From: Flavobacterium panacagri
Lineage (GTDB): Bacteria > Bacteroidota > Bacteroidia > Flavobacteriales > Flavobacteriaceae
DNA: 64,000 nt
Assembly: GCF_030378165.1 (NCBI RefSeq)
Contig: NZ_CP119766.1
Coordinates: forward strand, 1,178,001 to 1,242,000
Direction: 5' to 3'
Below are positions 37,544-39,424 of this stretch, piece after piece. The translations under genes and the position numbers were made by a program. The notes below the pieces were generated by a model. It did no database searches and had not been told where the DNA came from. It saw only the letters and a list, made by a program, of their open reading frames with translations. The first letter of the stretch is position 1. Every line of letters starts with the position of its first letter.

Positions 37544-38404
37544 ATGGCAAATTTAAAGGAAATCCGTAATAGAATTACTTCCGTTTCATCAACGATGCAG
37601 ATTACATCTGCGATGAAAATGGTTTCTGCTGCAAAGCTGAAGAAAGCACAAGATGCAATCACTGCAATGCGTCCTTATGCCGAGAAATTAACGGAGTTAT
37701 TGCAAGATCTTTCTGCATCACTTGAAGGTGAAGTTGGAGGAGATTACACTACACAACGTGAAGTGAAAAAAGTATTGCTTGTTGCTATAACTTCTAACAG
37801 AGGTTTATGTGGTGCTTTTAATTCAAATATTATTAAAGAGATTAAAAATCGTACTGCTTTTTACCAAGGAAAACAGGTAGATGTTTTTGCTATTGGTAAA
37901 AAAGGAAATGATGCTTTAAGCAAAACTCATAAAGTACACGGTCATCATAATGCTATTTTTGATCATTTGACTTTTGAAAATGTTGCAGGAATCGCTGATA
38001 ATCTTACAGAGAAATTTTTATCTGGAGAATACGATAGAATCGAATTAATTTACAATCAATTTAAAAACGCTGCGACTCAAATTGTTCAAACGGAACAGTT
38101 TTTACCGTTAGCACCTATTAAATCTGATGCAGCTGCTTCTACTGGAGATTATATTTATGAGCCTTCAAAAGAAGAAATTGTTTTGACTTTAATCCCTAAG
38201 TCTTTAAAAACACAATTGTATAAAGGTATTCGTGATTCATTCGCTTCAGAGCATGGAGCACGTATGACTGCTATGCACAAAGCAACAGATAACGCAACTG
38301 AATTAAGAAACCAATTGAAATTAACTTATAACAAAGCGCGTCAGGCTGCTATTACAAGTGAAATTTTGGAAATCGTTGGTGGAGCAGAAGCTTTGAATGG
38401 ATAA
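37544..38404 (+). CDS. atpG: F0F1 ATP synthase subunit gamma
   Basis: The 286-residue protein has the conserved ends of the rotor shaft: RNRITSVSSTMQITSAMKMV at the start and RQAAITSEILEIVGGAEAL at the end. It is the last gene of the operon. The beta and epsilon genes do not follow, in line with the split operons known in Bacteroidota. A strong terminator ends the operon. Confidence 0.96.
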   Translation: MANLKEIRNRITSVSSTMQITSAMKMVSAAKLKKAQDAITAMRPYAEKLTELLQDLSASLEGEVGGDYTTQREVKKVLLVAITSNRGLCGAFNSNIIKEIKNRTAFYQGKQVDVFAIGKKGNDALSKTHKVHGHHNAIFDHLTFENVAGIADNLTEKFLSGEYDRIELIYNQFKNAATQIVQTEQFLPLAPIKSDAAASTGDYIYEPSKEEIVLTLIPKSLKTQLYKGIRDSFASEHGARMTAMHKATDNATELRNQLKLTYNKARQAAITSEILEIVGGAEALNG

Positions 38405-38424
38405 TTTATTCCATATTATATAAT

Positions 38425-38456
38425 AAAAAAAAGCCAGCATTTGCTGGCTTTTTTTT
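38425..38456 (+). terminator. Terminator of the atp operon
   Basis: GCCAGCA and TGCTGGC pair around two bases, flanked by eight A and eight T bases. This is one of the strongest terminators in the window. Confidence 0.93.
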
Positions 38457-38489
38457 ATTGGAAGTTTTTTCTTTTTTAAAAATAACTTT

Positions 38490-38542
38490 ATAAAATGGTG
38501 ATTCTCAAATTATTCAAAAATTGAGAATCACTACCATTTTAT
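38490..38542. repeat. Long inverted repeat behind the atp operon
   Basis: Arms 38490-38508 and 38521-38542 pair over 19 bases, except for a three-base bulge in the right arm; the loop is 12 bases. It has no T run of its own and directly precedes the tandem array. Confidence 0.8.
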
Positions 38543-38566
38543 AAAAATAGACAGATTGACTCTGTG

Positions 38567-38834
38567 TGCTTTGTCTTTTATGGGAACAAACTAGCTTTAT
38601 TAATCCCACGGCTCTGTTTTTTTAAGGGTTACAATACAGCAGAATCAATCCCTTGTGCTTTGTCTTTTATGGGAACAAACAAGCTTTATTAGTCCCAGTG
38701 CTCTGTTTTTATTAGGGTTACACTACAGCTTAATCAATCCCTTATGCTTTGTCTTTTATGGGAACAAACAAGCTTTATTAGTCCCAGTGCTTCCTTTTTT
38801 ATAAGGGTTGTATCTAGCTTTCTCAATCCCTGTG
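38567..38834. repeat. Tandem array: three 89-bp units, each two 44/45-bp half-units
   Basis: TGCTTTGTCTTTTATGGGAA recurs at 38567, 38656 and 38745, exactly 89 bp apart. Inside each unit a second, related half starts: GGG occurs at 38582, 38626, 38671, 38715, 38760 and 38805, at steps of 44 or 45. Each half has GGG, an AGCTT-like middle (AGCAG in the second half-unit), CCC 18-22 bases further, then TGCTyTGT (weaker in places) and a T run. Most pair into a short hairpin (TGGGA with TCCCA, or AAGGG with CCCTT). No unique spacers exist, so it is not CRISPR. No long frame crosses it. The remaining gene-free stretch up to 38977 shows only a -7 element. Confidence 0.9.
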
Positions 38835-38977
38835 AAACAAATTTAGGAAAAGACTGTCTAAAAAAAGTTACATAATTTTCATGTCTAATTTATATATTTC
38901 ACATGTCTTTGATTTTTAATTATATAAGTCTTAACTTAAACTTTACTTATTTTTGTTTATATTTTAATAAAAAATTC

Positions 38978-39424
38978 ATGAATCTTTCTATAAAAGAACT
39001 AATTACAGTGCAAGAAATGTTATTTCAAATTGAGACTATTAGGCATTTATATCCTAAACTTAGCTTAGAGCAATACGAGAATTATCTTAAAGAAATGGTG
39101 CCTCATAATTATACTCAAATTGCAGTTTTTGAAAATGATGTTTGTCTGGGCTTAACAGGGTGTTGGTCTGCTACAAAGCTTTGGACGGGTAAATATCTTG
39201 AAATAGACAATTTTGTGGTTAATCCAGAATTTCGATCTAGAGGAATTGGAAAAATGCTTACTGATTATATCGAGAAAAAAGCAATAGAATTAAATTGCAG
39301 CAGTATAGTTTTGGATGCTTTTACAGGAAATTTTGCTGCGCATCGTTTTTACTACAATCAAGGTTATGCACCTAAAGGTTTTCATTTTGTAAAAATCTTA
39401 GACGAGACCAAAATGACTGTTTAA
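38978..39424 (+). CDS. GNAT family N-acetyltransferase
   Basis: The 148-residue protein has the GNAT fold. The acetyl-CoA loop RSRGIGKMLTDYIEKKA follows strand FVVNPEF, and the C-terminal part has DAFTGNFAAHRFYYNQGY. The substrate is unknown. The ATG at 38978 (MNLSIKELITVQEML) is chosen because a -7 element, TATTTTTG, lies at 38948-38955; the frame is open further upstream but that part overlaps the promoter. Confidence 0.87.
   Translation: MNLSIKELITVQEMLFQIETIRHLYPKLSLEQYENYLKEMVPHNYTQIAVFENDVCLGLTGCWSATKLWTGKYLEIDNFVVNPEFRSRGIGKMLTDYIEKKAIELNCSSIVLDAFTGNFAAHRFYYNQGYAPKGFHFVKILDETKMTV

Follow-up and report, generated by a model that had tools for sequence, protein, structure and literature searches.

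Our analyses support the presence, behind atpG on the minus strand in Flavobacterium panacagri, of a gene for a noncoding RNA whose tandem repeat units would bind a protein, a reading to which, taken as a whole, we assign a probability of about 0.5. The prediction of an RNA gene on this strand, made from promoter and hairpin sequences in the window (the whole stretch of 64,000 nucleotides analysed) and in its relatives, is its strongest component and very probably correct. Comparison between genomes supports a conserved module, the conservation of its promoter, the covariation of the outer stems of the units and the dimeric organization of the array. The array is single in this genome and lies between housekeeping genes. 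If the RNA is made, flavobacteria, in which few regulatory RNAs have been characterized, would gain a new RNA gene, and this gene would either show the tandem-pseudoknot plan at work outside toxin-antitoxin loci or hint at an unseen toxin partner. No published description of the array was found in the open-licence PMC literature, and Rfam 15 gave no match above the gathering score in the window; an undescribed repeat family had been among the candidates first offered.

The array comprises 267 bp arranged as three 89-bp A-B dimers, i.e. six units of the form GGG-n20/21-CCC (Table 1). Both TRF (period 89, 2.7 copies, 91% matches, 38565-38809) and an ungapped repeat search (89-nt copies at 38565, 38654 and 38743, the second and third being 90% and 76% identical to the first) agree with the six tandem 44/45-bp units, paired three times behind atpG, that had been read from the letters alone. 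Successive GGG are spaced by 44, 45, 44, 45 and 45 nt, and CCC follows 20 or 21 nt after GGG in every unit, as had been noted in approximate terms; AGCTT, described as present in most units, occurs in five of the six, the first B unit having AGCAG instead. All units share one orientation and form imperfect palindromes around AGCT, and no unique spacers were found between them, again as originally seen. A covariance model built from 64 diverse units (10 of 184 regular-expression matches were dropped and the remaining 174 thinned to 64) recovered the six window units with E values of 1e-8 to 8e-5 and returned exactly these six from the 5.98-Mb genome, the next match (E 0.275) being noise. The conserved module extends beyond the initially proposed interval of 38567 to 38834: among 16 orthologues, mean column identity to the window was 94.4% in the array, 92% in the long stem-loop H1, 73% in the hairpin H2 and 83-89% in the tail, and fell to 55% past 38906, just outside the module.

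Table 1. Features of the array locus (positions in the window; +, plus strand; -, minus strand)
Feature	Position	Strand	Remarks
atpG	37544..38404	+	PF00231; convergent with the predicted RNA
atpG terminator hairpin	38421..38460		A- and T-flanked; scored on the plus strand only
Conserved module	~38487-38905		broader than the array itself
Predicted RNA	~38833-38487	-	~350 nt; predicted 5' end 3 nt ahead of the first GGG
Long stem-loop H1	38487..38545	-	putative 3' terminus of the RNA
Hairpin H2 (ACAGA-GTCAA-TCTGT)	38551..38565	-	directly 3' of the array, then a T-rich run
Array	38565-38831	-	three 89-bp A-B dimers
Dimer 1, model units	38567-38609, 38610-38654		covariance model
Dimer 2, model units	38656-38698, 38699-38743		covariance model
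Dimer 3, model units	38745-38787, 38788-38832		covariance model
Predicted sigma-A -7 box TAAATTTG	38838..38845	-	conserved; TAnnTTTG consensus as in the start-site portion of PMC9723704
Upstream element AAAATTATGTAAC	38867..38879	-	conserved when 87 distinct sequences upstream of the box are aligned on it; possible activator half-site
Second, similar upstream element GTGAAATATATAAA	38889..38902	-	same 87-sequence alignment
GNAT acetyltransferase gene	38978..39424	+	PF00583; divergent from the predicted RNA; outside the system

Homologues, which the original prediction had proposed to seek in other Flavobacterium genomes, do exist. Of 199 genomes of the genus, 46 gave BLASTN matches to the array, 37 of them at a single place, and the unit model matched in 54 of the 199 (at least three of them, G002, G158 and G177, probably by chance) and was silent in the other 145. 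The model also matched 3 of 397 genomes in a sample of the family, all three belonging to the genus Flavobacterium. An exact pattern for the A unit found 93 matching stretches in named genome records, and among the matches listed (80 of 93) all belonged to Flavobacterium or to Flavobacteriaceae, one being filed as [Flexibacter], a former name; carriers include Flavobacterium johnsoniae CI04 and F. saccharophilum DSM 1811. Some genomes contain a second, longer array, and clusters in the named records reach up to 12 units. Two exact patterns gave no match in viral contigs, nor did blastn of the module against 72,556 plasmid and 50,697 phage records, and on these zero matches we rejected a phage or plasmid origin of the array. 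The number of units was even in 77 of the 83 testable arrays of the named set (five of its 88 clusters are cut by locus ends) and, under a second way of parsing, in 105 of 118 distinct arrays; because unit numbers are even, we take the A-B dimer as the element that is copied, as had been suggested from the pairing in the window.

The minus strand carries a predicted promoter and, at the other side of the array, 3' hairpins, features that go beyond the first observation of this locus. In the part of PMC9723704 dealing with the start-site map of F. psychrophilum, TAnnTTTG at -12 to -5 is given as the sigma-A consensus. This box is present on the minus strand in all 35 type-2 arrays (32 distinct sequences), 17-19 nt separating its first T from where the array's first GGG ends, and its variable positions are AA in 23, AC in 11 and GC in 1; shuffles put the chance of the box at a fixed place at 0.0009, and among related sequences it is shared partly by descent. 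The named set overlaps the type-2 set; of its 83 testable arrays, 76 have TAnnTTTG, six a type-1 promoter and one neither. Type-1 and clade-2 arrays bear GTATTG-N20-nAnnTTTG on the minus strand in 13 of 13 cases, and the type-1 promoter is retained at locus L062 even though GNAT is absent there. Above 87 distinct type-2 boxes, the similar blocks GTGAAATnTATAA and AAAATTATrTAA are conserved, which suggests an activator, with no clear TTG at -33 in the aligned upstream sequences. In the window the two corresponding elements (38867-38902), whose starts are separated by 22 bp, lie above the predicted promoter and resemble direct-repeat activator sites.

On the plus side, no such box was found within 80 nt in any of the 35 type-2, 83 named-set or 13 type-1 and clade-2 arrays. 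Arrays linked to peptide genes, and similar ones, have the minus-side box at a distance of 65-92 nt in 10 of 11 cases and a plus-side box within 80 nt in 4 of 11, and some of the latter then show a plus-strand hairpin and T-run. A plus-strand RNA, considered on account of U-runs behind some arrays, was rejected on the lack of a plus-side promoter in most classes and of space in clade 2, where the array starts directly at the atpG terminator and thus leaves no room for one.

Reading on from the array along the minus strand, one meets H2 and H1 in clade 1, whereas in clade 2 the next hairpin is that of the atpG terminator; relatives have other stems in place of H2, and the terminator, flanked by A and T runs, could be usable in both directions. 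Across 65 distinct sequences, minus-strand folds of H1 contain 82 G-U pairs and plus-strand folds 26, and the minus-strand fold is the more stable in 46 of them, so that modelling of H1 favours the minus strand as the transcribed one. The minus-side promoters, the position of H2 and H1 after the array and this G-U bias together led us to place the predicted RNA on the minus strand. Wobble pairs within the units themselves (25 plus, 34 minus) show no strand preference. The predicted RNA folds with a z score of -3.71, most of which probably comes from H1, given that the array by itself scores -1.16 on the minus strand (-0.19 on the plus strand). GGG/CCC can close each unit into the small hairpin first proposed, although shuffled sequences fold as well as the array does by itself.

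Covariation of the base pairs, which it had been suggested to analyse, is seen in the outer GGG/CCC stems. Compensating variants include GGG/CCC, GAGG/CCTC, AGAG/CTCT and AGG/CCT, with flanking T-A, A-T and C-G pairs, and in the set of 64 units own pairings beat permutations within type (z -6.5 to -7.0), A and B units having been sorted by a crude rule for this test and for that of pairing between units. A candidate second helix joins the plus-strand linker GCT-TTGT to the left loop ACAA..AGC, which would create an H-type pseudoknot. Its GCT/AGC core is nearly invariant, so its p values rest on the variable part, which gave 0.001-0.0045 with flat controls in the 64 units; in a larger set of 87 units the helix was the best of 21 tests at a p of only 0.01, which fails multiple-test correction. 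Compensation was seen as TGGT/ACCA in L069 and TTAC/GTAA in L064, and several B units are devoid of the variable part. In an alignment of the best 150 of 220 matches, from which most clade-2 units are for that reason absent (as they are from the wobble counts and from an analysis of which letters are constant), the two-helix model exceeded all 500 shuffles in cells paired, both-sided cells and covariation score; a control slid by +1 nevertheless had more covarying cells than the model (54 vs 30) and a higher score (0.093 vs 0.084), with fewer cells paired (58% vs 87%), perhaps because A units sit one column off in the alignment. RNAalifold returned no consensus structure. None of the 21 tests placed a pairing between neighbouring units above the pair within the unit, the left loop with the neighbouring left loop giving uncorrected p values of 0.021 and 0.036. 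These comparisons weakly support the second helix, and we consider the chance that units fold as true pseudoknots to be a little short of even.

In the reading that we prefer, transcription would start from the sigma-A promoter TAAATTTG, below two activator-like elements, and the transcript would cross the six units and end at H2/H1 or at the shared atpG terminator. Each unit would be closed by its GGG/CCC stem and would display the invariant AGC, with A-rich linkers finishing in AGC; if the GCU and UUGU of the loop paired with the ACAA and AGC of the linker, an H-type pseudoknot could arise in every unit. The slightly differing A and B units would form the dimer, present in one to six or more copies, and the RNA would thereby offer several similar structured sites for stoichiometric binding of a protein partner, as type III antitoxin RNAs do. 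Transcription, the pseudoknot and the partner are what we infer, and action through protein binding is put forward tentatively. A more ambitious version, rather unlikely as matters stand, would see a genus-specific class of tandem RNAs that stands apart from the type III families, with two unlike pseudoknots paired in an obligate repeating dimer and with a protein partner that may have two subunits or be toxic.

The closest plan among known systems is that of the type III antitoxin RNAs ToxI, CptI and TenpI. PMC4627078 describes 36-nt pseudoknots for ToxI and, for CptI, an H-type pseudoknot of 45 nt whose loop is rich in A. The array is likewise tandem and spacerless with units of 36-50 nt, and would, if its second helix is real, share with CptI the A-rich H-type pseudoknot. 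It could accordingly be an orphan or trans-acting antitoxin, with its own promoter and 3' hairpins, inhibiting a ToxN-like or unrelated nuclease encoded elsewhere, which we regard as improbable. Type III systems have a cognate toxin gene immediately following the repeats, and their toxin cuts the RNA into single repeats, whereas downstream of the array on the minus strand lies atpG in antisense; the GNAT gene on the other side is divergent, and array and GNAT each occur alone. The ToxN_toxin family (PF13958) was found in none of the 199 genomes, a search in which control genomes were silent too. Furthermore, unlike type III antitoxins, the array alternates A and B units and was confined to one genus in the searches made. 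The analysis turned up no protein partner. Because the defining toxin neighbour is missing, we have not filed the array as a type III member.

The minus-strand promoter speaks equally for a regulatory RNA that base-pairs with mRNAs, each repeat supplying the same seed, either the loop that precedes AGCU or the A-rich linker, and such RNAs do exist in the genus, as the portion of PMC9723704 concerned with Rfp18 illustrates. A seed, however, would have no need for alternating A and B units, and the most constant letters (GGG, AGC, CCC, GCT) fall at the would-be stems and loop cores, whereas the remaining loop segments drift between units and species; we hold this explanation to be unlikely. Of the small RNAs originally envisaged, an RNA gene is indeed favoured, but on the opposite strand and as one multi-unit RNA rather than separate small ones. 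Protein-binding DNA sites had also been envisaged, and an untranscribed cluster of sites for a regulator or chromosome-binding protein would suit both the imperfect palindromes around AGCT and the L066 dimer, flanked by a gene for a short peptide and one for a TPR/AraC-type regulator (L068 and L073 look similar by eye). Unit length and GGG-AGCT distance nevertheless vary, the former (36-50 nt across genomes) in a way that flexible RNA linkers would allow, most BLASTN-positive genomes have the array at one place only, and arrays come with a fixed sigma-A box and 3' hairpins, so that we prefer an RNA gene to DNA sites, for which we see a slim chance. As to functionless selfish or slippage DNA, tandem dimers do change in number and most genomes of the genus have no match; the existence of homologues and the covarying outer stems make plain slippage unlikely, and with the conserved promoter, the fall in identity from 94% to 55% at the module edge and the absence of dispersal in the genome we judge it very improbable.

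Several other repeat systems share particular features with the array. CsrB and RsmZ are single RNAs with many repeated stem-loops; the units resemble these, with the difference that their GGG lies within the stem, and since CsrA was not found in the window's genome (three control genomes being positive) an RNA of this type is excluded. BIME/REP elements are palindromic units in alternating pairs, whereas the array has one locus, uniform unit orientation and an attached promoter, and the lack of dispersed copies in the genome argues against them. Short-period direct repeats also recall CRISPR and TIGR arrays. The absence of unique spacers argues against a CRISPR array; the Nop domain is the mark of Tas-like proteins, and the failure to find a Nop-domain protein in the window's genome (controls being positive) argues against a TIGR-Tas array.

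The gene adjoining the array is atpG, GNAT or a flippase gene in 42 of 49 loci, some of which overlap. In clade 2, AtpG is 84-87% identical to that of the window and unit matches measure 36-47 nt. Among the 145 array-less relatives, all 12 examined have neither a unit nor a type-1 promoter within 420 nt behind atpG, and because of this empty site promoter and array behave as a separate module. GNAT lies immediately behind atpG in four of these 12 genomes; this, together with two arrays and no GNAT match in G066, led us to discard GNAT as the toxin of an RNA-GNAT pair. At L064:7063-13915 and L065:6548-13389, six extra genes lie between GNAT and a one-dimer array, including in L064 an ABC transporter ATPase (Pfam).

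Six other arrays lie 61-110 bp from the called starts of short peptide genes (L066, L068 twice, L073 and L101 twice), which are absent at L069, L074, L076 and L105. The peptides resemble double-glycine leaders, and Pfam gave no family for the one tested; the gene downstream of the L066 and L069 arrays encodes an AraC-type HTH domain with weak TPR matches. Recurring blocks were visible by eye between peptide gene, array and regulator gene in L066, L068, L073, L076 and L101, namely a TTCTCGAGAA palindrome, GTAAGACGTTACT and GAATTTC-type elements. In L096, about 1.4 kb of other sequence separates two copies of the atpG-type terminator and array start, as if inserted with duplication of the terminator-array segment.

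Searches with Rfam at eight loci (E up to 5) gave sub-threshold matches on flanking hairpins, one of them, in L070, overlapping the array edge by 4 nt. Rfam also places Flavo-1 (RF01705), which differs from the array in sequence and structure and does not match it, near the locus in two relatives: at L067:7849-7928 (-), with 79 bits, and, below the gathering score, at L070:2832-2957 (+), in both between flippase and dut, downstream of the array locus.
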